Shown in pieces: positions 5,028-37,299 of a DNA stretch of 64,000 bases; position 1 is the first letter of the stretch, and each line of letters starts with the position of its first letter. The stretch is from Pseudomonadota bacterium (GTDB lineage: Bacteria > Pseudomonadota > Alphaproteobacteria > G022571365): contig JACZXZ010000004.1 in the NCBI GenBank assembly GCA_022571365.1, positions 1 through 64,000 on the forward strand. Reading direction: 5' to 3'. The notes beneath the pieces are model-generated. The model made no database searches. It was not told the DNA's origin and was given only the letters and a program-made list of their open reading frames with translations. Both the position numbers and the translations under genes were made by a program.

Positions 5028-6293
5028 TCAGCCGTTCAACGAGCTGACGCGCCGCGCCGCGTTGGCCAAACGGGTGACCCGCGCAAGCGGCGGCGGGTGC
5101 GAATGGTGAAACGCCGAATAAAGCCGATCGGGTGTGAGGGTATTCGCATTCGCGCCGTACAGCTTCACGAGCGCCCGGCTCAGAACCCGCGGATCGGCGT
5201 GGTCGGCGGCGAAGGCGTCGGCCTCGAACTCGAACCGCCGGAATGCAGAGGATGCAAGCGGTTTCAAGAATACCCGCAAGACCGGTAGGATCAGCAGCAC
5301 CAATGCAATCGCCGCGTGGGGCGACGCGCGGGCTACGCCAAGGCCGTTATAAAACCCGGTCTGTTCAGCCAGCCAGCCCAGCAGCATGACACCGACCAAG
5401 CTGGCGAGGGCCATGGCGGTCAGGTACTTTTGTATGTGGCGGCGCTTTAAGTGACCGACCTCGTGGGCCAATACCGCCTCGATTTCCTCGGGACCGAGGG
5501 CGTCGAGGAGGGCGTCCAAAAGCACGACGCGCTTGCTGCCCCCGATCCCCGTGACGTAGGCGTTGCCGTGAGTGGAGCGGCGCGATCCGTCCATGACGAA
5601 GACACGGTCAAGCACGAGGCCGCATCTTTCCAGCAGTCCGGCGATCCGTGTCCTCAACGCCTCGTCCCGCAACGGGACAAAACGGTTGAACAGGGGCGCG
5701 ACCAGTGTCGGGTAAGCCCACGTTTTGGCCAGAACGAACGCCATCCACACGGCCCAGAGGCCCAGCCACCAGAGGCTCCCGGCATTTTCCATCAGCCACA
5801 GGGCCAGGGCCGCCAGGGGTGCGCCGATCACCACCAGCAGAAGCCCTTTTTTGATCGCGTCGGCCATGAACAGCCGCAGGGTTACGCGATTGAAGGCGAA
5901 ACGCTCCTCGATGACGAAAACGTGGTAGGCGAGAAGGGGCAGGCGGAGCAGCGCCATCAGCAGCAGGGTGCTCGCAACCACCCCGACACCGGTGGCGAGC
6001 GGCACGAGATCCACGGCGCGCCAGGCCTGGTCGAGCAAATTTAGCCCGCCGCCCACCGTCCAACCCAGCAGGAAAGCCGCATCGATGCCCGTCGCGGCAA
6101 TGGCAAGCTTGGTTCTTGCCACGCTGTAGTCTGCCGCCTTGTGGTGGAGGTGAAGGGAGATGCTGTCCCGGAATTCCGACGGCACGGTGGAACGATGCGC
6201 CTGCACGTGAGCCACCTGGCGCGTGGCGAGCCAGGTTTGAAGGACAACGGAGCAAGCCAGCGCCGTCAGGAAAGTGGCGGTAAAACCGTTCAT
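5028..6293 (-). CDS. M48 family (Ste24-like) membrane zinc metallopeptidase
   Basis: This is an integral membrane CAAX-prenyl-protease-type peptidase of about 421 residues. It has several N-terminal transmembrane helices, the zinc motif 'AVLAHEVGHLKRRH' (HExxH) in the middle, two further helices, and the third zinc ligand in 'FEFEADAFAADH'. 'VIEERFAFNRVTLRLF' is the conserved M48A pre-domain. Bacterial members act in membrane protein quality control. The ATG at 6293 ('MNGFTATFLTAL') is preferred because it begins directly with the first hydrophobic helix. The gene is convergent with the lipoprotein gene. Confidence 0.88.
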   Translation of the reverse strand: MNGFTATFLTALACSVVLQTWLATRQVAHVQAHRSTVPSEFRDSISLHLHHKAADYSVARTKLAIAATGIDAAFLLGWTVGGGLNLLDQAWRAVDLVPLATGVGVVASTLLLMALLRLPLLAYHVFVIEERFAFNRVTLRLFMADAIKKGLLLVVIGAPLAALALWLMENAGSLWWLGLWAVWMAFVLAKTWAYPTLVAPLFNRFVPLRDEALRTRIAGLLERCGLVLDRVFVMDGSRRSTHGNAYVTGIGGSKRVVLLDALLDALGPEEIEAVLAHEVGHLKRRHIQKYLTAMALASLVGVMLLGWLAEQTGFYNGLGVARASPHAAIALVLLILPVLRVFLKPLASSAFRRFEFEADAFAADHADPRVLSRALVKLYGANANTLTPDRLYSAFHHSHPPPLARVTRLANAARRVSSLNG

Positions 6294-6617
6294 GCCGCCG
6301 CTCCTTCCCTCAGCGGGGCGGCACATCGGTTCCGGAGGCCGCCGGCCATCCGCCGCACCAGGAAGGAGCCTTCGCGGACCAGGCCGATATCGACCTGGAC
6401 CAACGCTGCTCCGGCCCTCGGTCGGCTACCGGGCGTCATCGGCCGCAGCGATGCCGCCCACTGCAAGGAGGGGCAGGGGACCCGGAAAAGCGGAAAGCTC
6501 TCCCACCAACGCGCCATTCCTGTCGAATCCCGCCGCCGGTCCCACAGGGTTGGGGAGGTCCCGTCCCATGAGCGTTATCGGTAGGGCAGGAGCACGGTAA
6601 GCCAAGGGGTTGAGGCC

Positions 6618-6749
6618 TCAATCGCGGCAGGCGGCGTACCCGGCCGCGATAGCCCGTTTACGGACGGCACTTTCATCGAAGCGTGACCCCTTCTTGATCA
6701 AGAGCCGATACATGGCTGCCCCAATCGCGGTCGTGCCATGATTAGCCAT
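6618..6749 (-). CDS. Small basic ORF overlapping the end of serC
   Basis: This 43-residue frame is absent from the ORF track. It starts ATG GCT AAT inside the last codons of serC and overlaps its stop, so it could be translationally coupled. The peptide is basic ('YRLLIKKGSRFDESAVRKR') with no membrane segment or known motif. I do not recognise a family; it could be a real small protein, or the tail of a lost gene such as a transposase. About 320 bp between it and the M48 gene start hold nothing else I can support. Confidence 0.3.
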   Translation of the reverse strand: MANHGTTAIGAAMYRLLIKKGSRFDESAVRKRAIAAGYAACRD

Positions 6750-7896
6750 GGTGGCGCGAGAACTCTTCCATGAAATCGATCAGGGCCTCTACGCCCTCTT
6801 CTGGCATCGCGTTGTAGAGGCTGGCACGGATACCGCCCATCACGCGATGCCCCTTGAGGTTGAGCAGGCCGCGCCGGTGCGCCTGCGCTAGAAACCGCGC
6901 CTCAAGAGATTCATCGGACAGCCGGAAACACACGTTCACGAGCGAGCGGTCAGCGGGAGCGACCGGGCAACGATAGAAACCATTGGCGTCAATCGCGGCG
7001 TATAGCTTGGCGCTCTTGCGCCGGTTCAACCGCTCAATCGCCGGCATTCCCCCCTGGCCCTGCACCCAGTTGAAGACCAGTCCCGCCAGGTAGATGGCGT
7101 AGGTCGGCGGCGTGTTCACCCTGGAGTCATGATCGGCCTGGATCTTGTAGTTGAAGACCGTCGGCGTTCCGGGCAGGGCGCCGCCGAGAAGATCTTCGCG
7201 GACGATCACGATGGTCAGCCCTGCGGGGCCGACGTTCTTCTGGGCACTCGCGTAGATCAGTCCGTAGCGCGCGATATCCACGGGCCGGGATAGGAAGTCG
7301 GACGTCATGTCGGCCACGAGCGGCACCTCGCCGGTCTCCGGCGTCCAATGGAACTCCAGCCCCTGCGCGGTTTCATTGGTGGTGATGTGACAAAAAGCCG
7401 CGTCCGGGTTCAGGCGCCAGGTTTGGCGCGGCGGCACCCGGGTGAAGTTGTCGCGCTCCCCGCTGGCCGCGACATCGACGCGGCAGTAACGTCGGGCCTC
7501 GGCAATGCCTCTCCTGGACCAGTGGCCGGTCTCCACATAGTCCGCCCGTTCCCGGCCGCGCAGAAGGTTCATGGGAACCATGGCGTGATGGGCGTAGGCG
7601 CCTCCCTGCAAGAACAGCACGCGGTAGTTGCTGGGAATCGCCAGAAGGCCCCTTAGATCCTCGATGGCGCGCGCCAAGATCTCGGTGAACTCCGGGCCGG
7701 TGAAGGGCATCTCCAACACCGAAATCCCGGTCCCCCGCCAGTCGAGCATCTCGTCGCGGGCTTGGGCCAGCACCACCCGCGGCATGATGGCGGGGCCGGC
7801 GGCGAAGTTGAAGACACGGCGCCCGCCGCGACCGGTAGTCCCGCGCGAGCTTCGCCGCCGCCGGGTCGTGTCGCCTGCCTCCGGGAGCGTCTGCAT
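6742..7896 (-). CDS. serC: Phosphoserine aminotransferase
   Basis: SerC converts 3-phosphohydroxypyruvate plus glutamate to phosphoserine in serine synthesis and also serves vitamin B6 synthesis. The protein has the class-V PLP aminotransferase markers 'RVFNFAAGPA' at the N-terminus, 'LFLQGGAYAHHAMVPMN', 'VADMTSDFLSRP' and the PLP lysine in 'YASAQKNVGPAG'. It ends with 'GGIRASLYNAMPEEGVEALI'. At 384 residues it has a roughly 25-residue basic N-terminal extension before 'RVFNF' compared with typical 360-residue members, so the true start may be internal. It lies 18 bp downstream of the membrane-protein gene in the same direction. Confidence 0.93.
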   Translation of the reverse strand: MQTLPEAGDTTRRRRSSRGTTGRGGRRVFNFAAGPAIMPRVVLAQARDEMLDWRGTGISVLEMPFTGPEFTEILARAIEDLRGLLAIPSNYRVLFLQGGAYAHHAMVPMNLLRGRERADYVETGHWSRRGIAEARRYCRVDVAASGERDNFTRVPPRQTWRLNPDAAFCHITTNETAQGLEFHWTPETGEVPLVADMTSDFLSRPVDIARYGLIYASAQKNVGPAGLTIVIVREDLLGGALPGTPTVFNYKIQADHDSRVNTPPTYAIYLAGLVFNWVQGQGGMPAIERLNRRKSAKLYAAIDANGFYRCPVAPADRSLVNVCFRLSDESLEARFLAQAHRRGLLNLKGHRVMGGIRASLYNAMPEEGVEALIDFMEEFSRHHG

Positions 7897-7914: not shown

Positions 7915-8424
7915 TCAGTCGAACGGAAAAAGGGCGTGCGGGCCCGCCGCCATCAGATACAGCAGCGGGATCGACAACACGGTGTTGGCGCGCGCCGAGA
8001 GAAACGTGATGCGCGAGCAGCGCACCCGCTCCTCGAGAGGCGCCGGGACGAAGCCCAGCACCTTCTTCTGGTGCGGCCACATCACCAGCCAGACGTTGAG
8101 CACCATGATCGTGCCGATCCACGCGCCCGCCCCGATCGGCGCCTCGTAGCCGGTGAGAGTCAAGGCGTCGACCAGCTGCTCCTGGCGCCACAGCATCAGG
8201 ATCCCGGTCACCCAGGCGACGATCGAGGCGTAGCGGAACACCGAGTGCTCGCGCCAAGCCCGCCCCATATAGGACGAGGTCAGCACCTCTTGCTTGTCCT
8301 GCTCGGGCGTGTAAGGCAGGAACCTCGGCACCAGGACGAGGCCGACATAGTTGTGGCCAATCCACACAATGCCGGCAAAGAAATGGAGCCAGCGCAACAA
8401 CAGGTCGACTAGCAGTCCGTCCAC
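7915..8424 (-). CDS. Urate-oxidase-N (PuuD-like) domain membrane protein
   Basis: The protein of 169 residues has about four transmembrane segments. Its opening 'LLLRWLHFFAGIVWIGHNY' and the later 'VLNVWLVMWPHQKKVLGF' match the membrane domain of PuuD-type urate hydroxylases (Urate_ox_N). The conserved His residues in these segments resemble haem or quinone ligands. The cytochrome c domain present in full PuuD proteins is missing, so the domain acts alone or with a separate cytochrome. A urate role is not supported by neighbours. It lies between the small membrane-peptide gene and serC, likely in one operon. Confidence 0.7.
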   Translation of the reverse strand: MDGLLVDLLLRWLHFFAGIVWIGHNYVGLVLVPRFLPYTPEQDKQEVLTSSYMGRAWREHSVFRYASIVAWVTGILMLWRQEQLVDALTLTGYEAPIGAGAWIGTIMVLNVWLVMWPHQKKVLGFVPAPLEERVRCSRITFLSARANTVLSIPLLYLMAAGPHALFPFD

Positions 8425-8457: not shown

Positions 8458-8565
8458 TCACCCGGCTCCCGCGCTGACGAGAGCCCGCAGGACCACGACC
8501 AGCAGCGCGGTCAGGGCGAGCCCGCAGAGGACCGTGCCGGCGACCGAATCAAGGGGCGTTTTCAC
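8458..8565 (-). CDS. Small single-pass membrane peptide, full-length copy
   Basis: This 35-codon frame was missed by the track. It starts with GTG after a strong ribosome-binding site (aaggaggagg) and encodes 'KTPLDSVAGTVLCGLALTA' followed by more Leu/Val, one clear membrane helix. Its first 68 coding bases recur identically at 10116-10183. It lies 34 bp before the urate-oxidase-N-like gene, so co-translation with that membrane protein is likely. The function is unknown; it could be a small subunit of a membrane complex. Confidence 0.6.
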   Translation of the reverse strand: MKTPLDSVAGTVLCGLALTALLVVVLRALVSAGAG

Positions 8566-8667
8566 GGCCTCCTCCTTGCTGTGTCGGGTGGCACATTATT
8601 GTGCTGCCCCGCTGGTGCATTTTTGCTCCGCCGTTGATAGCTCCGACCACTTACCGCAGCGGGATCC

Positions 8668-9990
8668 CTAAGCAACCGTAGCCACGACGCCCAATCCCTC
8701 CATTGATTTCTTGAAGATAATGGGTTCGCAGTCCACGAACGCGCGCGGATTAAAGTCGGGGTCGGCCATCACGCCCCAGATCTTTCGCATCTGCATCCCT
8801 TTATTGCCCGCATCGTAAAGGGGGAAGACGATCGCCTCCCGCAGATACTTCTCCAAGGGATGGACCTTATCAAGGGCGTTGACACCCATGACCTGCATAC
8901 ATTTGAAGACGGCCTCGAACAGGAACTCGCCCGCGAAGACCTTCGCCATCGCGCCAAGGGCATGGCCTTCGGAGTCATACATGTCCAGGTAATGGGCCGC
9001 TTTCCACGAGAGGTAGCGGCACGCCTCGATCCGCATGGCAACGTCTGCCAACATATACCCAACGTTTTGGTGGTAGATGATGGGCTTGTCACCCCCCGCG
9101 GTATATGTCTTGGCCCAGTCCAACACGTATTCATAGGCCGCCCGCGCCACGCCAACGGCCGCGATGCCTGCGACCGGACCCGACCAAGTGAAAGCCTTGC
9201 TGATGACGAGGTCTCCGTTGCCGGCCGCGAACACGTTCTCTTCGGGTATCCGGCAGTTATCGAACTCGATCCAGTTATTCTGGCAGAGCCGATGGCCGAG
9301 CTTATCAATCGGCTGTTTGTACCGCACGCCGGGCGTCCCTCGAGGCACGAGCATTGCGCTAAGCCCCTCCTTGCCCCCTTTCTTCTTATCCGTCCGGACA
9401 ATAACGGTATTAACGTTGGCCCCTTTCAGGTCCCAGCCCCCGGCGTTGCCCGGCCAATATTTTGTGCCGTTCAGCACGTATTCCCCCTTTCCCTTATCGT
9501 ACTCGGCGGTGACACCAATACCGATAGGATGGGGACCTGGGTGATCGAAATTCGCTGTGCCCCCAGGGGCTCCGGGAGCCTCGCTAACTACCCAGCCAGC
9601 TAAATATTCCCCGGTGGGATCGCTTGTGGCCTCGCCCACCCACTTCTTTTTCTGCTCCTCCGATCCAAACCATACAAGGGGCATCAAAGCCAAGCCATTG
9701 ATCAACAGGGTTGTAGCGAAACCCGGATCGACGGCGCAGATCTCTTCTGCCACGATCTGGAAATCGATATTGCTAACGCTCGCGCCACCATACGCCTCGG
9801 GAAGAAAACCCATGGCGAATCCCAGCTTATACGCCTCGACATAGGCGGGTTTCGTCATTTCAAAGGCCTTCTGAGGATCCGGCTCAGCGTCAGCCTTGGC
9901 GACGAGCGGCTTCAAGACATCTTGGGAAAACTCCTGCGCCGTCTTCCGCAACGACTTCTGCTCCCACGTCAGTGAAAAATCGATTGCCAT
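8668..9990 (-). CDS. Acyl-CoA dehydrogenase family protein
   Basis: The 440-residue flavoprotein has the acyl-CoA dehydrogenase domain order: an N-terminal helical domain ('EQKSLRKTAQEFSQDVLKPL'), a middle beta domain ('YVLNGTKYWPGNAGG'), and a C-terminal helical domain ('GIAAVGVARAAYEYVLDWAK'). A 'YEG' catalytic motif like that of MCAD is not obvious, so the base may be placed differently. The gene is flanked on both sides by copies of the small membrane-peptide gene. Its third codon positions are visibly less GC-rich than its neighbours, which suggests separate acquisition. It is probably transcribed with the pqqA-D-E genes upstream. Confidence 0.88.
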   Translation of the reverse strand: MAIDFSLTWEQKSLRKTAQEFSQDVLKPLVAKADAEPDPQKAFEMTKPAYVEAYKLGFAMGFLPEAYGGASVSNIDFQIVAEEICAVDPGFATTLLINGLALMPLVWFGSEEQKKKWVGEATSDPTGEYLAGWVVSEAPGAPGGTANFDHPGPHPIGIGVTAEYDKGKGEYVLNGTKYWPGNAGGWDLKGANVNTVIVRTDKKKGGKEGLSAMLVPRGTPGVRYKQPIDKLGHRLCQNNWIEFDNCRIPEENVFAAGNGDLVISKAFTWSGPVAGIAAVGVARAAYEYVLDWAKTYTAGGDKPIIYHQNVGYMLADVAMRIEACRYLSWKAAHYLDMYDSEGHALGAMAKVFAGEFLFEAVFKCMQVMGVNALDKVHPLEKYLREAIVFPLYDAGNKGMQMRKIWGVMADPDFNPRAFVDCEPIIFKKSMEGLGVVATVA

Positions 9991-10111
9991 CCTCTCTTCC
10001 TCCCGAGAAAAGAAACTTAAGGGCTATCTCTATGGTCCAGCCAGCACGTGACGGCGGCCTAAGTGGAAAAATGACGGCCGATTTCTACACGGCCGCCGCA
10101 CCCGCCCGCCG

Positions 10112-10189
10112 TTACACCACGACCAGCAGCGCGGTCAGGGCGAGCCCGCAGAGGACCGTGCCGGCGACCGAATCAAGGGGCGTCTTCAT
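10112..10189 (-). CDS. Small membrane peptide, truncated copy
   Basis: This is a 25-residue frame beginning ATG AAG ACG and reading 'MKTPLDSVAGTVLCGLAL' before stopping at TAA, ten residues shorter than the copy at 8458-8565. Sixty-eight bases are identical between the copies, and homology stops abruptly at the 3' end. The upstream region differs and has only a gcgggg-type binding site. It lies between pqqE and the acyl-CoA dehydrogenase on the same strand. It may be a working peptide that keeps most of the helix, or a duplication scar. Confidence 0.45.
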   Translation of the reverse strand: MKTPLDSVAGTVLCGLALTALLVVV

Positions 10190-10238: not shown

Positions 10239-11411
10239 TCATGGGGGAGAGGGAGCTTCATCCCATCCCCCTGTGAAGGCCGTTGAGACCGCGCGCGGGC
10301 GTCGCATCACGAGCGGACGATGGACCCGGGGCCGAAACGCGTCCTCGATCGCCGCTTCGATCACATGGTGATGCGGCGAAAGGGCGCATGCCGGATCGGT
10401 GTTGGCCGCATCCCCGGTCAGCAGATAGGCTTGGCAGCGACAGCCGCCGAAATCCTTTTTTCTTTCGGGACAGCCGCGGCAGGGCTCCTTCATCCAGCTC
10501 TCGCCGCGGAACCTGTTGAAGGCCGGCGAGTCGTGCCAGATCCACTCGAGGCTGTGGTCCCGCACCGAGGGAAAGTCCATGTCCTTGATAACCCGGGCTT
10601 CCTGGCAGGGCAGGCCGGTGCCGTCGGGGGCGATGGTGAAATGAATGGTGCCCCAACCGTTCATGCACGCCTTGGGCCGGCCCATGTAATAGTCGTGGTC
10701 GACGAAGTAGATCGTCATGCGGCCGGCCATCCGCTCGCGAAATGCCTTCACCAACTCGTCGGCGCGCTCGACCTGCTCTCTGGTGGGCAGGAGCTCGTCG
10801 CGGTTGAGCCAAGCCCAGTTGTAGTACTGGATTTGGACGTATTCCAGGTAGTCGGCCTTGAGTTCCTCGGCCATGGCCAGGATGTCCTCGGTGCGGTCGA
10901 GGGTCTGGCGGATCGTCGGGACGTTGAGCACCATGGGGAAACCGTGCGCCTTGATCAGGCGCGCGACCTCTAGCTTGTGCTTGTGAGCCTTCGCTCCGAC
11001 CAGCTTGTCGGTGAGGTCGCGGTCACAGGACTGGATGCTGAGCTGGATCTGATTGAGGCCGGCCTGCTTCAGGGCCACGAGCCGTTTCTCTGTCAGCCCC
11101 ATTCCCGAGGTGATGAGATTGGTGTAATAGCCGAGCTCACTTGCCTCGGCGACCAGCTCCTCGACGTCCTTGCGGACGAGTGGCTCACCGCCGGTGAACC
11201 CTAGCTGTAGAGCACCCAACTCACGGCCCTCGCGCAGAACGCGCTTCCATTCCTCGGTGCTAAGCTCGTCGCGGTAGAGGTCGAAGTCGAGAGGGTTGCT
11301 GCACCAAGGGCATGCAAGCGGGCACCGGTAGGTCAGCTCGCAGCAGAGCCAGAGTGGTTTGCCCTGTCCGTCAAGACTTAGGGAAGAATCCGATCCGGGA
11401 AGAACTGGCAT
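10239..11411 (-). CDS. pqqE: PqqE, PQQ biosynthesis radical SAM enzyme (set 1)
   Basis: PqqE forms the Glu-Tyr carbon-carbon crosslink in the PqqA peptide. The radical SAM cluster motif is 'CPLACPWC' near residue 27; 'FTGGEPLVRKD' is the GGEP SAM-binding motif. The SPASM domain carries 'PKACMNGWG', 'LPCQEARV', and the 'CRGCPERKKDFGGCRCQA' cluster with a final Cys in 'ANTDPAC'. All cluster ligands are present. I start at the ATG at 11411, which has a ggaggt site. That ATG and about 13 following codons derive from an out-of-frame duplicated pqqD end (see pseudogene entry). It pairs with the set-1 pqqA and pqqD; no pqqB or pqqC lies with it. Confidence 0.93.
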   Translation of the reverse strand: MPVLPGSDSSLSLDGQGKPLWLCCELTYRCPLACPWCSNPLDFDLYRDELSTEEWKRVLREGRELGALQLGFTGGEPLVRKDVEELVAEASELGYYTNLITSGMGLTEKRLVALKQAGLNQIQLSIQSCDRDLTDKLVGAKAHKHKLEVARLIKAHGFPMVLNVPTIRQTLDRTEDILAMAEELKADYLEYVQIQYYNWAWLNRDELLPTREQVERADELVKAFRERMAGRMTIYFVDHDYYMGRPKACMNGWGTIHFTIAPDGTGLPCQEARVIKDMDFPSVRDHSLEWIWHDSPAFNRFRGESWMKEPCRGCPERKKDFGGCRCQAYLLTGDAANTDPACALSPHHHVIEAAIEDAFRPRVHRPLVMRRPRAVSTAFTGGWDEAPSPP

Positions 11412-11644
11412 GTGACACCTCCAGGGACTTGACGCCGCCGCCCGCGACGGCACCGTCGGCATAGTGTGTTTTCAGTTCTTCGATCACCTCGCCCACCGGC
11501 TTTTCCCCCCGGTGCGGCATCCCCGGTGCAGCGACTGAAGATCTCGCCGGTGGTCTCGTTCAACTTCACGGCGCCTTCGGGGTAAAAAAAAGCAGCCAGC
11601 GGTAGGTCAGCTCACAGGCGAGCCAGGGCGGTTTGCCCTGCCCG
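11412..11644 (-). pseudogene. Decayed pqqE 5' fragment plus pqqD 3' fragment (tandem duplication scar)
   Basis: Reading the minus strand after the pqqD stop, the first 55 bases encode 'DGQGKPPWLACELTYRW', which matches the start of the neighbouring PqqE. The sequence then jumps to 'PEGAVKLNETTGEIFSRCTG', which matches the middle of the neighbouring PqqD. After a frameshift it continues with 'KPVGEVIEELK' and ends in 'LEVSH', where the present pqqE ATG lies. The arrangement pqqD - pqqE' - 'pqqD - pqqE is explained by a tandem duplication of the pqqD/pqqE junction followed by deletion and decay. It is not translatable as a whole. Confidence 0.8.
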
Positions 11645-11944
11645 TCAGGACTTGAGTTTGATCCAGCCTCTGGCGTGCGACACCTCCAGGAACTCAAGGA
11701 GGCTTTTTTCCAGCGTCGCGTTCGACTCGGGGTCCGAATATATCTCCTTCAATTCTTCGATGATCCGGGCGACCGGCTTATCCCCGGTGCAGCGACTAAG
11801 GATCGCGCCGGCGCCCTCGTTCAACTTCACCACGCCTTCCGGATAAAGTAGAACGTGCGAATCCTGGGTCTCTTCCCAACGGAAGAGGTACATCGGGTTG
11901 ATTTCGAAACAGTCGTCCAATTGAACCCGGGCGTCTGCAGCCAT
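11645..11944 (-). CDS. pqqD: PqqD-type PqqA-binding chaperone (set 1)
   Basis: PqqD is a RiPP recognition element that binds the PqqA leader and delivers it to PqqE. The 99-residue protein shows the family core 'VVKLNEGAGAILSRCTG' and 'ARIIEELKEIYSD' in the middle, then a C-terminal winged-helix part. It differs clearly from the second PqqD in the window (24862-25149), with an unusual acidic N-terminus ('DDCFEINPMYLFRWEE'). The start at 11944 has a purine-rich aaggaaggg site. It lies about 90 bp after its pqqA and is followed by the duplication scar and pqqE. Confidence 0.85.
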   Translation of the reverse strand: MAADARVQLDDCFEINPMYLFRWEETQDSHVLLYPEGVVKLNEGAGAILSRCTGDKPVARIIEELKEIYSDPESNATLEKSLLEFLEVSHARGWIKLKS

Positions 11945-12031
11945 GAACTCGCCCTTCCTTCCGGCCGTTCGCGCAGAAAGGCAAAGAGGGACTGCTGGAT
12001 GCAAGCCCCTCTTTCAGATGGTATTCTCGTT

Positions 12032-12112
12032 TCAGCTCAAGCGGGCGTATGCGTAGGCCGTCACTTCAAAGCCTAGGCGCAGGTCGTAAAAGCCAGGGTC
12101 GATCCACTTCAT
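12032..12112 (-). CDS. pqqA: PqqA precursor peptide (set 1, Pseudomonas/enteric-like type)
   Basis: This 26-residue peptide is absent from the ORF track. It reads MKW at the start and 'LRLGFEVTAYAYARLS' at the end. The E-x-x-x-Y core (Glu16, Tyr20) that is crosslinked into PQQ is intact. The start has a strong ggaggtg site. The core context 'DLRLGFEVT' resembles pseudomonad and enterobacterial PqqA and is unlike the two other PqqA genes in the window ('VGMEINCY'). It heads the pqqA-pqqD-pqqE operon on the minus strand. Confidence 0.9.
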   Translation of the reverse strand: MKWIDPGFYDLRLGFEVTAYAYARLS

Positions 12113-15442: not shown

Positions 15443-17269
15443 ATGAAATTGGTGACTAAGTTTGCTGTCCTTGCGGCGGCCACGTTCGCCGTGGGGCTCC
15501 TTTACGTCTCGCCGGTCCAGGCCGGACCGGTGACGTATCAAGACCTTTTGACCTCCGACGACGATACATCCTCATGGCTGCAGTACGGCCGCACCTATGA
15601 CGGCCATCGCTATGTTCGCTTGGACCAGATCAACCGGTCCAACGTCAACCGGCTTCGGCCCGTGTGGATTTTCCCGACCGGAGGCGAGAACCGCGGTCTG
15701 CAAGCGACCCCGCTCGTCCATGATGGCGTGATCTACATGTCGGCCGATGAATCGCGCGTTTTCGCGATCGACGCCCGCACCGGTGCGAAGATATGGGCGT
15801 ACGACCCAGAGGTCGCGGAAGAGGCGGAGCGCGTCTATTGCTGCGGGTCGCAGAACCGTGGCGTGGCGCTCTTGGATGACAAGGTGTTCGTCGCCACCAT
15901 GGACGCCCGCATAGTCGCGCTCAACAAGGACACCGGCGAGGAAATTTGGGACACGGTGGTGCACACCTGGGAAGATGGCTACAGCATCACCGGCGCGGTG
16001 CTCGCGGTCAAGGACATGGTGCTGACGGGCGTTGCCGGCGGCGAGTTCGGCATCCGCGGGTTCGTCAAGGCCTTCGACGCCGACACCGGCGAGCTTCGCT
16101 GGACCGCTTACGCGATCCCCGAAGGGGACGATTCCTGGCCGGGCGACATGTGGAAGGACGGCGGAGGCTCCACCTGGACCACCGGCGCCTTCGACCCCGA
16201 GCTCAACCTGGTCTACTGGCACGTCGGTAACGCGGGCCCCTGGAACTGCAATCTGCGCCCGGGCGACAACAAGTGGACCGCGGGCGTGATCGCGATCGAC
16301 GCCGATTCCGGCGACATCGTCTGGGGCTTCCAGTACACCCCGCACGACTGCTGGGACTATGACAGCGTCAGCACGCCGGTTCTCGCCGACATCGTGATCG
16401 ACGGCCAGATGAGGAAGACCCTTCTCCACCACGACAAGAACGGCTTCTTCTACGCCATCGACCGCACCAACGGCGAGTTCATCTACGGCAAGCCCATGGT
16501 TCCCGGGCTCAACTGGGCCTTCGGGCTCGACCCGGTGACCGGTCGGCCGGACGTCAACCCGGACTTCGTGGCGGTGACCGGCGGGCCCGAGGTCGCGCCG
16601 ATCATCCCCAGCCTCGAAGGCGCGATCGACTGGCAGCCTCTGGCCTACAACTCCGATACCGGCTTGATCTACTTCCTGTCCAACACCTGGGCCATGGGCT
16701 ATAAGTTCTACGAAGACTGCCCGCGTCCGACAGGGGCGGGTGAGTGGTATCTGTGCGCGGACTATCAGCAGTACATCCGCCCGGACATTCCCGTCGGCGC
16801 GTTCCTGGCGGTCGACGTGGCCACCGGCAACGAGGTCTGGCGCACCACCAACACCCTGCCGTTCTGGTCCGGGGTCGTCGTCACCTCGGGCGGTCTCGTG
16901 TTTATGGGTGACAACTACGGGCACGCCATGGCGATGGACGCCCACAACGGCACGGTGCTCTGGCGCTTCCCGACCGGCTCGCCGATCACGGGAAGCCCGA
17001 TCACCTATGATATCGACGGTGTGCAGTACGTGCTGTTCCCCTCGGGCATGTCCGGCGACATGACCTTCTACTACACCAACCCGAAGGCCGGGAACCTCAT
17101 CGCCTTCGCGCTCGACGGCGGGGGTACGCCGCCTCACCCGGTGGGTAACAACCTCCAGTACGTTCCGGGCGGTCATTCGCCCGTCGGCGAGGCGGGCATG
17201 TTCCTCGGTGGCAGAGTCATCGAGGGGTATGGCTACCCGCCCACGGAGGAAAAGCCACTCGTACAATAA
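15443..17269 (+). CDS. PQQ-dependent methanol/ethanol-type dehydrogenase 1
   Basis: This is a periplasmic eight-bladed quinoprotein of 608 residues with a cleaved signal peptide ('AVLAAATFAVGLLYVSPVQA'). PQQ and metal ligands are visible: the vicinal disulfide 'YCCGSQNRG' near residue 130, metal ligand Glu in 'GGEFGIRGF', Asn in 'GNAGPWN', and the catalytic Asp in 'CWDYDSVS'. The second Asp of that D-Y-D is the extra ligand associated with lanthanide-dependent enzymes (XoxF, PedH); calcium MxaF types carry Ala there. Extra Cys residues ('PWNCN', 'HDCWD') are unusual. A ggggagg site precedes the ATG. It is paired with the cytochrome c gene just downstream. Confidence 0.93.
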   Translation: MKLVTKFAVLAAATFAVGLLYVSPVQAGPVTYQDLLTSDDDTSSWLQYGRTYDGHRYVRLDQINRSNVNRLRPVWIFPTGGENRGLQATPLVHDGVIYMSADESRVFAIDARTGAKIWAYDPEVAEEAERVYCCGSQNRGVALLDDKVFVATMDARIVALNKDTGEEIWDTVVHTWEDGYSITGAVLAVKDMVLTGVAGGEFGIRGFVKAFDADTGELRWTAYAIPEGDDSWPGDMWKDGGGSTWTTGAFDPELNLVYWHVGNAGPWNCNLRPGDNKWTAGVIAIDADSGDIVWGFQYTPHDCWDYDSVSTPVLADIVIDGQMRKTLLHHDKNGFFYAIDRTNGEFIYGKPMVPGLNWAFGLDPVTGRPDVNPDFVAVTGGPEVAPIIPSLEGAIDWQPLAYNSDTGLIYFLSNTWAMGYKFYEDCPRPTGAGEWYLCADYQQYIRPDIPVGAFLAVDVATGNEVWRTTNTLPFWSGVVVTSGGLVFMGDNYGHAMAMDAHNGTVLWRFPTGSPITGSPITYDIDGVQYVLFPSGMSGDMTFYYTNPKAGNLIAFALDGGGTPPHPVGNNLQYVPGGHSPVGEAGMFLGGRVIEGYGYPPTEEKPLVQ

Positions 17270-26791: not shown

Positions 26792-28549
26792 ATGAAATCA
26801 TTGTCTAAGATTGCTGTCCTTGGGGCGGCCACGGTCGCCGTGGGTCTCCTTTACGCCTCGCCGGTCCAGGCCCATGTGGAGACCGAAGACCTGGTGAACG
26901 CGGATGCCAACAAGGCCGAATGGCTGATGTATGGCCGCACCTATGACAACCAGCGCTTCAGCCCGCTGACCGAGATCACCCCCGCAAATGTTTCGGAGAT
27001 GACGCCGGTCTGGGCGTTTTCCACGGGCGGCAAGTTCGCCGGCCTCGAGGGGACGCCCTTGTTCCATGACGGCGTGCTCTATGTCTCCGCCGACTATGCG
27101 CGGGTCTTCGCGATCGACGCGCGCACCGGGATGGTGAAGTGGAGGTATGTGCCGGAATATGACGAAGGGCTTGACGCCGTGGTGTGCTGCGGTCCGTCCA
27201 ACCGAGGCCTGGCGCTCAAGGGCGACTTCGTCTATGTCCAGCTGTTGGACACTCGGCTGGTCGCCCTCAACATCGCCGACGGCACGGTCGCCTGGGAGGC
27301 GACGATGGACGACTGGCGACAAGGCATCGCCTCGACGGGCGCGCCGCTGGTCGTTAAGGACCACGTGATCGTCGGCCACGCCGGGGGCGAATTCGGCGTG
27401 CGGGGCTACATCAGGTCCTACAACGCCCAGACCGGCGCGCTCGAGTGGACCGCCTACACCATTCCCGGCCCCGGCGAGCCGGGTAACGAGACCTGGCCCG
27501 GGGATACCTGGATGCGGGGCGGCGGCACAACCTGGGTGACCGGGATCTATGATCCCGAGCTCGACCTGCTCTACTGGGGAGCGGGCAACCCGGCGCCGTG
27601 GAACGCCGACGTGCGCCTGGGGGACAACCTGTGGTCAAACTCCCTCATTGCGTTCGATCCAGACAGCGGGGATATCCAGTGGGGCTTCCAGTTCACCCCG
27701 AACGATCCCTTCGACTATGACGGCAACGCGCCCGGGCCGATCCTGATCGATGTCACCATCGACGGCGAGGCGATCAAGGCCATGGTGCAGTCGAACCGGA
27801 ACGGCTTCCTGTATGTGCTGAACCGGGAGAACGGTGAGTTCATCTACGCCGTTCCCACCATCGATGGGATCAACTGGACCACGGGCATCGATCCGGTAAC
27901 CGGCCGTGCCAGCATCGACATGACGATGTACCCGATGAGCGGCGGACCGAAGATCGAACCCATCATTCCCAATCTCGAGGGTGGAACCAATTGGTTCCCC
28001 GCGGCCTATAACCCCGATCTCGGCTACATCTTCTTCAACACCAACGACTGGGCCATGATGTTGAAGGCGATTCCGGAGGAGGACATCGTATATGTGCCCG
28101 GCGAATATTACGGGCTGCATGACTTCCAGGCCTACCGGCTGGGGGAGAACTTCGGATACACCAAGGCCTTCGACGTCGCCAACAAGAAGTTCGTTTGGGA
28201 GGTGCCGAGTACGGAGATGTTGTTCGCCGGCTTGCTGGCGACCAAGGGCGGCCTCGTCTTTACCGGCGACGAGCGGGGCTTCTTCATGGCCATCGACGCC
28301 AAGTCCGGCGAGGTGCTGTGGCGGTTCCAGACCGGGTCGGGGATCAACGCCTCGCCGATCTCCTACGAGCTGGACGGCAAGCAGTATGTCGCCATCCTGT
28401 CAGGTATGGGCGGCGACCCGCTCTATTACTACTTGGAGGAGCCCAAGGGCGGCATGCTCTGGGTCTTCGCCATCGACGGCGTGCTTCAGGACAGCCCGGC
28501 GTCCAACGTTGTACCGATTCCGGGAGCAGTGCCCCTGTTTGAACAGTAA
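26792..28549 (+). CDS. PQQ-dependent methanol/ethanol-type dehydrogenase 2
   Basis: This 585-residue periplasmic quinoprotein is a paralogue of the enzyme at 15443; their signal peptides are nearly the same ('VAVGLLYASPVQA'). It has the vicinal disulfide 'VCCGPSNRG', metal ligands in 'GGEFGVRGY' and 'GNPAPWN', and the catalytic region 'PFDYDGNAPGP' with the second Asp linked to lanthanide use. Blade motifs such as 'GEVLWRFQTGSG' occur in the last third. It lacks the extra cysteines of enzyme 1. A gggagg site precedes the ATG. Different active-site surroundings suggest a different alcohol or aldehyde range. Confidence 0.93.
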   Translation: MKSLSKIAVLGAATVAVGLLYASPVQAHVETEDLVNADANKAEWLMYGRTYDNQRFSPLTEITPANVSEMTPVWAFSTGGKFAGLEGTPLFHDGVLYVSADYARVFAIDARTGMVKWRYVPEYDEGLDAVVCCGPSNRGLALKGDFVYVQLLDTRLVALNIADGTVAWEATMDDWRQGIASTGAPLVVKDHVIVGHAGGEFGVRGYIRSYNAQTGALEWTAYTIPGPGEPGNETWPGDTWMRGGGTTWVTGIYDPELDLLYWGAGNPAPWNADVRLGDNLWSNSLIAFDPDSGDIQWGFQFTPNDPFDYDGNAPGPILIDVTIDGEAIKAMVQSNRNGFLYVLNRENGEFIYAVPTIDGINWTTGIDPVTGRASIDMTMYPMSGGPKIEPIIPNLEGGTNWFPAAYNPDLGYIFFNTNDWAMMLKAIPEEDIVYVPGEYYGLHDFQAYRLGENFGYTKAFDVANKKFVWEVPSTEMLFAGLLATKGGLVFTGDERGFFMAIDAKSGEVLWRFQTGSGINASPISYELDGKQYVAILSGMGGDPLYYYLEEPKGGMLWVFAIDGVLQDSPASNVVPIPGAVPLFEQ

Positions 28550-34016: not shown

Positions 34017-34145
34017 CGTCCTCGCTCAGCCCTCCCCTCGGGGGTCAGCGATCATCGCCGTTGAACGCGGACGGATAGCGAGAGGGGAAACGGGTGGCCG
34101 ACATCGCCTCTCCCCCGCGCACGCGCGTCACTGCTTCGTTCGAGA

Positions 34146-35495
34146 TCAGATCCAAGGCGGCTGCTCGAACTCCTGTTGGGCGTACTTCAAGGGCCAGACG
34201 ATCTTCGCCTCGCCCTTCTTGAGCTGCACCATCGGGAGGAAGAAGCCTTCCATGAAGCGCCCGGTCATGACCTCGTTCGGCGCCAGGGCGTTGGGCCCCG
34301 GCTCCTTGGAGAACTTGTAATATTGCCAGACGCCCTCGTACTCGATCTCGCGCGTGGTCTCGACCAGGGTGTCGAAGTCGAGCGTGCCGGCCTGGTTCAG
34401 CACCTCGATCGCCAGGCGCATGTAGTCGTAAGCATGTCCGGACGGCGCGATGCCCGGCTCCTCGCCGTATTTGGCCTCGTAGCGGTCGACCCACGCCTGC
34501 TGGAACGGGGCCATGACGCGCGGCGAGTCCATGGTGACGACGAAATCGGAGGCATCCCCCGTCAGCTCGTACCACTCGCTGAACCAAGTCAAGCCATGGC
34601 CGATGACCAGCGCCTTGACCCGCTGGCTGCGGAACTGCTTGACGAAGTTGGCGGCGCTGACGCTGCCGGTCGTGGTTATGCCCACGACCGAGACGCGCAG
34701 CGCCTTGTATTTGGCGATGAGCGGCGAGAATTCCGCCTCGTCGAGCGCCGTCACGTCGTAGGGCAGTGGATCGAAGCCGGCCTGCTTGAGCGAGTTCATG
34801 AGCGCCTCGCCCCAGCCGCGGCCGTAGTCGGTGTCCTCGACGAGCACCGCGGCGGTCTTGGTGGCCGGCGTCCACAGGCCGTTATCCATGAAGTGCCGCA
34901 AGGGCTCGCCGTAGAGGCCGGCGAAAATCGGCGGCGAAGGCCAGCCCTTGAACCAGCCCTTGTATTTCTCGGGGTCCTTGTTGATCTTCTCGGAGACGTA
35001 CTGGGACGCGCCCTGGTGGCCGATGTGGACGATCTTGAGCGGCACCTCGGCGTCCATCACCGCCATGGCGACCGAGGAATGCCAGCCGTTCACCATGAAC
35101 TGCACGCCCCGGCGGTTGACGGCGTCGGTGACGGCCTTCACCGCCTTCTCGGGGCTCGACTGGCTGTCGACCCAGACGATCTCGATGTCACGCTTGGATC
35201 CGTCGATCGTGACCGGCGTCTCGCCGGCGGCGCGGGCGCCCTCGAGAGCCATCTCGACGCCCTTCCTGACATCGTCGCCGGTGCGGCTGGCCGGGCCCGT
35301 GAACGGCCCCATGACGCCGACCTTGACCGGCTCGCCCGCCTCGCCTGCCTCCTGCGCGCGCAACGCCGAAGGCATGATGACCATCAAGGAGCCGACCGCG
35401 CCCAAACCCCCGACGGTCTCGAGGAAGCCGCGCCGCGAAAGGCCGTCCGGCAATGTCAGCTTGGTCTTCCTATCGCTTCCCCTCCCCTCCGTCAT
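34146..35495 (-). CDS. Tat-exported amide/branched-chain amino-acid ABC binding protein, copy 1
   Basis: The 449-residue periplasmic protein has a twin-arginine signal ('LSRRGFLETVGGLGAVG') and the type-I binding fold of urea/amide/Leu-Ile-Val receptors ('VKVGVMGPFTGPASRTGDDV', 'VLVEDTDYGRGWGEALMNSL'). The ATG at 35495 follows a ggagggg site; the track start adds unrelated residues. It is nearly identical to the copy just upstream. Cargo may be an amide or amino acid. Confidence 0.9.
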   Translation of the reverse strand: MTEGRGSDRKTKLTLPDGLSRRGFLETVGGLGAVGSLMVIMPSALRAQEAGEAGEPVKVGVMGPFTGPASRTGDDVRKGVEMALEGARAAGETPVTIDGSKRDIEIVWVDSQSSPEKAVKAVTDAVNRRGVQFMVNGWHSSVAMAVMDAEVPLKIVHIGHQGASQYVSEKINKDPEKYKGWFKGWPSPPIFAGLYGEPLRHFMDNGLWTPATKTAAVLVEDTDYGRGWGEALMNSLKQAGFDPLPYDVTALDEAEFSPLIAKYKALRVSVVGITTTGSVSAANFVKQFRSQRVKALVIGHGLTWFSEWYELTGDASDFVVTMDSPRVMAPFQQAWVDRYEAKYGEEPGIAPSGHAYDYMRLAIEVLNQAGTLDFDTLVETTREIEYEGVWQYYKFSKEPGPNALAPNEVMTGRFMEGFFLPMVQLKKGEAKIVWPLKYAQQEFEQPPWI

Positions 35496-35592
35496 TGTGG
35501 TTTCTCGTCTCGGGTATGCCGAAATGCGGCATCGCGGCGACGCCGCCCACAGCCCGAGACGCCGACCTCTCGCCATGGTCTCCGGCCGGCGG

Positions 35593-36933
35593 TCAGATCC
35601 AAGGCGGCTGCTCGAACTCCTGTTGGGCGTACTCCAAGGGCCAGACGATCTTGGCCTGGCCCTTCTTGAGCTGCACCATCGGGAAGAAGAAGCCTTCCAT
35701 GAAGCGCCCGGTCATGACCTCGTTCGGCGCCAGGGCGTTGGGTCCCGGCTCCTTGGAGAACTTGTAAAAATGCCAGACGCCCTTGTACTCGATCTCGCGC
35801 GTGGTCTCGACCAGGGTGTCGAGGTCGAGCGTGCCGGCCTGGTTCAGCACCTCGATGGCCAGGCGCATGTAGTCGTAAGGGTGGCCGGACGGCGCGATGC
35901 TCGGCTCCTCGCCGTATTTGGCCTCGTAACGGTCGACCCACGCCTGCTGGAACGGAGCGATGACGTGGGGCGAGTCCGTGGTGACGACGAAATCGGAGGC
36001 ATCCCCCGTCAGCTCGTACCACTCGCTGAACCAAGTCAAGCCGTGGCCGATGACCAGCGCCTTGACCCGCTGGCTGCGGAACTGCTTGACGAAGTTGGCG
36101 GCGCTGACGCTGCCGGTCGTGGTCATGCCCACGACCGAGACGCGCAGCGCCTTGTATTTGGCGATGAGCGGCGAGAATTCCGTCTCGTCGAGCGCCGTCA
36201 CGTCGTAGGGCAGTGGATCGAAGCCGGCCTGCTTGAGCGAGTTCATGAGCGCCTCGCCCCAGCCGCGGCCGTAATCGGTGTCCTCGACGAGCACCGCGGC
36301 GGTCTTGGTGGCCGGCGTCCACAGGCCGTTATCCATGAAGTACCGCAAGGGCTCGCCGTAGAGGCCGGCGAAAATCGGCGGCGAGGGCCAGCCCTTGAAC
36401 CAGCCCTTGTATTTCTCGGGGTCCTTGTTGATCTTCTCGGAGACGTACTGGGACTCGCCCAGGTGGCCGATGTGGATGATCTTGAGCGCCGCCTCGGCGT
36501 CCATCACCGCCATGGCGACCGAGGAGTGCCAGCCGGTCACCATGACCTGCACGCCCCGGCGGTTGACGGCGTCGGTGACGGCCTTCACCGCCTTCTCGGG
36601 GCTCGACTGGCTGTCGACCCAGACGATCTCGATGTCACGCTTGGATCCGTCGATCGTGACCGGCACCTCGCCGGCGGCGCGGGCGTCCTCGAACGCCATC
36701 ATGGCGCCGTCCCTGATGGCGTCGCCGGTGCGGCTGGCCGGACCCGTGAACGGTCCCATGACGCCGATCTTGACCGGCTCGCCCGCCTCCTGCGCGCGCA
36801 ACGCCGAGGGCATGATGACCATCAGGGAGCCGACCGCGCCTAAGCCCCCGACGGTCTCGAGGAAGTTGCGCCGCGAGAGGCCGTCCGGCAATGTCGGCTT
36901 GGTCTTCTTGTCGCCCCCTGTTCGGTCCATCAT
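35593..36933 (-). CDS. Tat-exported amide/branched-chain amino-acid ABC binding protein, copy 2
   Basis: The protein of 446 residues has a Tat signal ('LSRRNFLETVGGLGAVG') and is almost the same as copy 1 over its whole length. Differences cluster in the signal region and the N-lobe ('DAIRDGAMMAFEDARA' against 'DDVRKGVEMALEGARA') and near the end ('GVWHFYKF' against 'GVWQYYKF'). It heads the liv operon. Tandem copies may differ in ligand range or raise receptor dose. Confidence 0.9.
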   Translation of the reverse strand: MMDRTGGDKKTKPTLPDGLSRRNFLETVGGLGAVGSLMVIMPSALRAQEAGEPVKIGVMGPFTGPASRTGDAIRDGAMMAFEDARAAGEVPVTIDGSKRDIEIVWVDSQSSPEKAVKAVTDAVNRRGVQVMVTGWHSSVAMAVMDAEAALKIIHIGHLGESQYVSEKINKDPEKYKGWFKGWPSPPIFAGLYGEPLRYFMDNGLWTPATKTAAVLVEDTDYGRGWGEALMNSLKQAGFDPLPYDVTALDETEFSPLIAKYKALRVSVVGMTTTGSVSAANFVKQFRSQRVKALVIGHGLTWFSEWYELTGDASDFVVTTDSPHVIAPFQQAWVDRYEAKYGEEPSIAPSGHPYDYMRLAIEVLNQAGTLDLDTLVETTREIEYKGVWHFYKFSKEPGPNALAPNEVMTGRFMEGFFFPMVQLKKGQAKIVWPLEYAQQEFEQPPWI

Positions 36934-37299
36934 TGCCCTCCCAACTCTCAGGCGCGCTGGCAAGTTTGCGTGGGCTCGCTTCTCGGGTCGCACGGACCCC
37001 GCCACGATAACAGATGGCCGGGTCCGCGTCGATTCGCGCGAGCGGCCACGCCTGGGCCGAAGATTAAACGGCGCTCATCCGGAACGATCAAGAACGGAAT
37101 GTCGTCAATGTGAAGAATTCGACATTGGCGCGGCCGCGACGACGGCGCGGCCGAGGGCGCCGGCGATGTTTTGTATTCTCGAACGGTCTTGCCTTTCGGA
37201 CCGGGCTCGGGAGCCCCTCGCATGATGGACAAGCCGGTGACGGGAATCGGGGGGCCGCCGGCTCCGGGCCTCGCCGTGATGATGGCGAGGATGGGGGCC
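36934..37299. other. Intergenic region upstream of the liv operon
   Basis: About 365 bases lie between the first binding-protein gene and the end of the first polyamine-type operon. It must hold the liv promoter, but no convincing -35/-10 pair, operator or gene was recognised. Its plus-strand reading frames are shadows or low-complexity. Confidence 0.35.

Follow-up and report, generated by a model that had tools for sequence, protein, structure and literature searches.

A second set of pqq genes, arranged as pqqA/E/D-puuD-serC-pyrD, has been described in denitrifiers, including Hyphomicrobium denitrificans and others, and was speculated to serve oxygen-free PQQ synthesis (PMC12423496; Mol Microbiol 2025). 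Section 2.9 of that article does not mention a small ORF. PuuD itself is a cytochrome c urate oxidase with a DUF989/Urate_ox_N region, eight helices, and a cytochrome c domain (PMC4562309). A further system of interest is subunit IIa of the ba3-type cytochrome oxidases, a single-helix peptide of 34-41 amino acids (aa) that is encoded directly upstream of its partner and is structurally equivalent to a helix belonging to the partner in other lineages. Subunit IIa was unannotated in the Aquifex genome, was detected by mass spectrometry, and was seen in a crystal structure (PMC3128077).

Here, we analyzed a stretch of 64,000 nucleotides from an alphaproteobacterial genome assembly, called the window below, in which a first-pass annotation had noticed a tiny membrane-peptide gene on both sides of an acyl-CoA dehydrogenase gene. 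We propose, with a probability of roughly 70%, that the small ORF of 35 aa, which we call pep, is a genuine gene encoding helix 1 of a PuuD-like protein in a second-type pqq operon, and that the later insertion of a foreign gene duplicated the start of pep.

The pqq operon of the window

The genes of the operon and its surroundings lie on the minus strand in the order pqqA, pqqD, pqqE, pep copy 2, dehydrogenase, pep copy 1, PuuD-like gene, serC, pyrD remnant, and M48 peptidase:

12032-12112, minus: pqqA, precursor peptide MKWIDPGFYDLRLGFEVTAYAYARLS (ORF; upstream of pqqD in relatives too)
11645-12004, minus: pqqD (PF05402)
10239-11462, minus: pqqE, first copy (TIGR02109)
10112-10189, minus: pep copy 2, truncated duplicate of 25 aa with an ATG start
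8668-9990, minus: acyl-CoA-dehydrogenase-fold gene, nitroalkane-oxidase-like, 440 aa (Pfam/NCBIfam, PDB alignment, composition)
8458-8565, minus: pep copy 1, intact gene for a single-helix peptide of 35 aa, MKTPLDSVAGTVLCGLALTALLVVVLRALVSAGAG
7915-8424, minus: PuuD-like membrane protein, the presumed partner of pep (PF06181 Urate_ox_N; AlphaFold model)
6742-7896, minus: serC, phosphoserine-transaminase family (family match; order conserved in relatives)
6426-6605, minus: pyrD remnant, N-terminal motif LMGRDLPNPVGPAAGFDRNG joined to C-terminal PLLAVGGIAAADDAR, then a stop
5028-6326, minus: M48 peptidase, CAAX protease type (PF16491, PF01435)

As in the pqqADE-puuD-serC-pyrD cluster outlined in PMC12423496, pqqA, pqqD, and pqqE are followed by genes for a four-helix PuuD-like protein and SerC, and this set coexists with a classical one, which in the window comprises pqqB, pqqC, a pqqD-like ORF (named without a family-profile scan), and a second pqqE. 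Two features set the window apart from the outlined cluster: only a remnant of pyrD is left, and the operon contains an inserted nitroalkane-oxidase-like gene. In seven of the compared loci, serC is followed by a PyrD-like stretch; an intact pyrD-like gene after serC is absent in the window, and the sole strong DHO_dh match in the genome is on another contig. The operon is a second-type pqq cluster and a candidate for oxygen-independent PQQ synthesis, and in this genome it looks partly decayed.

The PuuD-like protein resembles PuuD in matching PF06181, with a partial match at profile positions 165-237, but differs from it in having 169 aa, four helices plus a detached one, and no cytochrome c domain. 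Urate oxidation by this protein is not implied.

Two copies of pep and the gene between them

The dehydrogenase gene is flanked by two direct repeats:

8492-8564, 73 nt: direct repeat on the PuuD-like side
10116-10188, 73 nt: direct repeat on the pqqE side

The repeats have a single mismatch over 73 nt and a start-to-start spacing of 1624 bp, and they contain the 68 identical bases that the first-pass annotation had pointed out (ACCACGACC...GGGGCGT). An exact match of 68 bases cannot be chance, and with up to 3 mismatches the 41-base core of the repeat occurs at only two sites in the 2.3-Mb genome assembly. Copy 1 of pep has a GTG start behind a strong Shine-Dalgarno sequence, AAGGAGGAGG, and is located upstream of the PuuD-like gene with a gap of 33 nt, while copy 2 is located 49 nt downstream of pqqE. 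Both copies read MKTPLDSVAGTVLCGLALTALLVVV; in copy 2 a stop codon comes next, so that the final valines of the hydrophobic core form the end of the peptide. The ORF translations agree with the initial description of one full copy and one that stops early. That description had also spoken of a gene duplicated on both sides of the dehydrogenase; there are indeed two copies, but the wording is misleading, because the true gene is the ORF of 35 aa and the copy of 25 aa is a truncated by-product. We found no curated-family match for pep in Pfam or NCBIfam.

The base usage of the dehydrogenase gene differs from that of its surroundings, as had been noticed before: its GC3 is 0.709, compared with a mean of 0.865 (sd 0.046) for the other genes of the window longer than 600 nt (z = -3.35). 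The best match of the protein among solved structures was nitroalkane oxidase (PDB 2c0u). Catalytic residues of this enzyme are Asp402, Ser276, and Arg409; the inserted gene has Asp393 at the position of the first and a serine at that of the second, but a glutamine at that of Arg409, and a nitroalkane oxidase activity is putative. Strong homologues of the dehydrogenase were rare, with one further genome in a draw of 385 genomes from the window's class and two in a draw of 399 genomes from the phylum. Strong homologues were also present in 17 plasmid records, and on a Shinella plasmid a homologue is located near nirB, ribA, and an integrase gene.

A foreign gene that is bounded by direct repeats and has a plasmid-borne homologue near an integrase could be a mobile cassette, with the 73-bp repeat as a recurring integration site or the end of a mobile element (att-like). 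We consider this very improbable and rejected it, since the ORF listing of the 1.55-kb insert has no integrase or transposase gene; moreover, the repeat is coding sequence with only two occurrences in the genome, and blastn of the insert flanks against homologous dehydrogenase loci gave matches essentially confined to the gene body. A scan for promoters and terminators around the insert detected nothing above shuffled sequences, and a hairpin between copy 2 and the dehydrogenase gene folds only slightly better than shuffles (z -2.2).

When 1624 bp were removed in silico, the ancestral order of pqqE, pep, and PuuD-like gene was restored with an intact ORF of 35 codons. The old site can still be recognized at both ends, because each copy retains its original flank, copy 2 that of pqqE and copy 1 that of the PuuD-like gene. 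This restored ORF, the foreign composition, the patchy taxonomic distribution of the gene, and relatives that lack it (see below) support the earlier suggestion of an insertion by recombination, and they point to a compositionally foreign gene placed between pqqE and pep. It might have arrived through a homologous crossover with a related DNA molecule, or through a repair event that duplicated the target.

The insert junctions are those of the assembled contig. The source is a draft assembly of 116 contigs, and no relative has a dehydrogenase gene between pqqE and pep, which would fit an assembly artefact, in which two strain variants or a chimeric metagenome join produced the repeat and the insert. 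Such an artefact is quite improbable, as both copies are within one contig, the estimated contamination is 0.7%, and the copies differ in start codon, one internal base, length, and flanks, which is unexpected from a simple duplicated join.

The operon in relatives

Scanning named genomes with the PuuD-like protein identified five PQQ-type loci, from Azohydromonas aeria and from metagenome-assembled genomes (MAGs) of Burkholderiales, Rhodocyclales, Hyphomicrobium, and Rokubacteria. All five contain pqqA-pqqD-pqqE-PuuD-like-serC without the dehydrogenase gene, and in four of them a small ORF separates pqqE from the PuuD-like gene. The peptide is 36 aa long in the Rokubacteria MAG (MKTPLDSVAGTVACGAALTVILFLVVRFLMGGGAAG). 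In the Rhodocyclales MAG it has 32 aa, and its ATG overlaps the stop codon of pqqE; Azohydromonas has a version of 30 aa, and in the Burkholderiales MAG the ORF reads longer. The locus from Hyphomicrobium (L040) has the same operon but, unlike the window, no detectable pep, which indicates that some lineages dispense with the helix or replace it.

The draw of 385 genomes from the window's class yielded six further PQQ-type loci, all with pqqA-pqqD-pqqE followed by pep, the PuuD-like gene, and serC. In five of them pep is separate. In the sixth (L082), pep and the PuuD-like gene are joined in one reading frame, giving a chain of 207 aa whose PuuD-like part is 74% identical to that of the window; this locus also has two pqqE genes in tandem. 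The wider phylum draw added one locus (L099, genome G402) with the order pqqD-pqqE-pep-PuuD-like-serC, in which pep probably starts with TTG. Its fetched sequence of 3.4 kb begins inside pqqD, so pqqA is outside it.

Overall, the dehydrogenase-free order pqqA-D-E...PuuD-like-serC was present in 11 relatives, and from pqqD onward in a twelfth (L099). The 11 relatives span Alpha- and Betaproteobacteria and a Rokubacteria MAG, and of all 12 loci pep is a separate ORF in 10, fused in one (L082), and missing in one (Hyphomicrobium). The comparison with loci lacking the dehydrogenase, which the first-pass annotation had suggested, hence recovered the order pqqE, pep, PuuD-like gene. The start of pep overlaps the pqqE stop as ATGA in L039 and L086 and is one base away from it in L041, boundaries of the kind known from co-translated genes.

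Probable homology of pep to the first helix of PuuD-like proteins

We also fetched about 42 non-PQQ paralogue loci from Alphaproteobacteria, the window's class, whose proteins score far lower with the PQQ-type profile. In most of them the helix and the PuuD-like protein form one continuous reading frame, which begins with the motif M..IL.SL..TVIAG..L, and a separate upstream helix ORF is present in L003/L068, L005, L007, L012, L016, and L079. From 26 of the paralogue N-terminal helices alone we built an HMM and, with every filter switched off, compared it with 3116 ORFs from the window and eleven PQQ loci. The top nine matches were PQQ-operon peptides (E 0.0004 to 0.16), and the next match had an E-value of 2.5; the individual E-values are modest because pep is short and hydrophobic. 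The AlphaFold model of the PuuD-like protein alone has four long helices (mean pLDDT 81.7), so that pep would supply a fifth. A Foldseek search of this model against the PDB gave no match at E <= 0.001 and only weak helical-bundle matches above this threshold.

The sequence of pep is conserved at the protein level. Its genes in L084 and L085 differ by 2 synonymous and 0 nonsynonymous changes, and either of them differs from L086 by 13-15 synonymous and 8 nonsynonymous changes (approximately 25 synonymous and 68 nonsynonymous sites). The values are dN 0.13 and dS 0.88 for L084-L086, and dN 0.27 and dS 0.74 for the window and L041, the Rokubacteria copy. Selection on pep is purifying, as judged from small counts of substitutions, and the pattern of non-coding DNA was not seen.

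Small single-helix regulators are common in bacteria, and pep is a separate ORF in 10 of the 11 PQQ-type relatives that carry it. It could hence be an independent small membrane protein, a regulator or accessory of the PQQ operon, that neighbors the PuuD-like gene by chance and is occasionally fused to it. We regard this as improbable, because in L082 and in most non-PQQ paralogues the PuuD-like chain begins with the pep helix, and because pep is always directly upstream of the PuuD-like gene in the fetched loci. The first-pass proposal of an unannotated small protein family thus stands as far as pep is a real conserved gene, with 10 separate orthologues and dN below dS, but not as far as the family would be independent. 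Instead, pep is best read as a real and conserved gene of the pqq cluster that encodes a detached transmembrane helix 1, the PuuD-like protein being a five-helix protein that is naturally split. The fusion of the same helix to the body in L082 and the paralogues argues, short of proof, for an association of pep with the PuuD-like body. A literature search for articles that connect the pqq operon with a small membrane protein and with gene fission gave none.

Possible role and history of pep

We propose that pep is inserted into the inner membrane, where it would pack against the four helices of the PuuD-like protein and so complete a protein of five helices that is a single chain in other lineages. 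The completed protein might then perform or support a membrane-linked redox step on a PQQ precursor. Later, in the lineage of the window, the foreign nitroalkane-oxidase-like gene would have entered between pqqE and pep by recombination, which would have duplicated the first ~73-77 bp of pep. The truncated 25-aa copy would have stayed behind pqqE, and the full copy in front of the PuuD-like gene would have gained a new ribosome-binding site. This scheme starts from the gene order, the conservation, the fusion, the foreign composition, and the repeat, all of which were observed directly; the physical association, the redox role, a role of pep in PQQ chemistry, and the way in which the foreign gene was inserted are what we infer from them. 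Our analysis did not show a heme site or chemistry for the PuuD-like protein. A more far-reaching idea, which we consider unlikely, is that pep and the PuuD-like protein form an unrecognised two-subunit membrane oxidoreductase that replaces an oxygen-dependent PQQ step (PqqB/PqqC), with pep as an overlooked essential subunit.

The nearest functional analogy for pep is subunit IIa. Both are short single helices that are encoded directly upstream of the partner, form part of the partner elsewhere, and escaped annotation. The two proteins are unrelated, the polarity of the IIa helix is opposite, and the association of pep with its partner is a prediction, whereas subunit IIa is seen in a structure.

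With pep, a PQQ cluster of possible oxygen-free synthesis would gain an unannotated conserved subunit. Cloning or deleting the cluster without knowledge of pep would miss a gene, because pep is unannotated there. The PuuD-like proteins also provide a compact example from nature of a membrane protein that carries its first helix fused in some lineages and separate in others.

Other genes of the window

The M48 peptidase gene adjoins serC in loci L083-L086 (51-54% identity) and has another location in the remaining loci, and it is possible that its product is the PqqA-processing protease. The genome has two M16 peptidase matches. The window also contains two genes for PQQ-dependent alcohol dehydrogenases, which share it with the two pqq gene sets:

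15443-17269, plus: PQQ-dependent alcohol dehydrogenase, methanol/ethanol family
26792-28549, plus: PQQ-dependent alcohol dehydrogenase, methanol/ethanol family

The pqqD/pqqE junction (11316-11853) contains a partial tandem duplication that has diverged (about 85%). Two adjacent and very similar genes for ABC-transporter substrate-binding proteins are located at 34045-37005 (ORFs 34146-35576 and 35593-37005) and seem to result from a tandem duplication of recent date.
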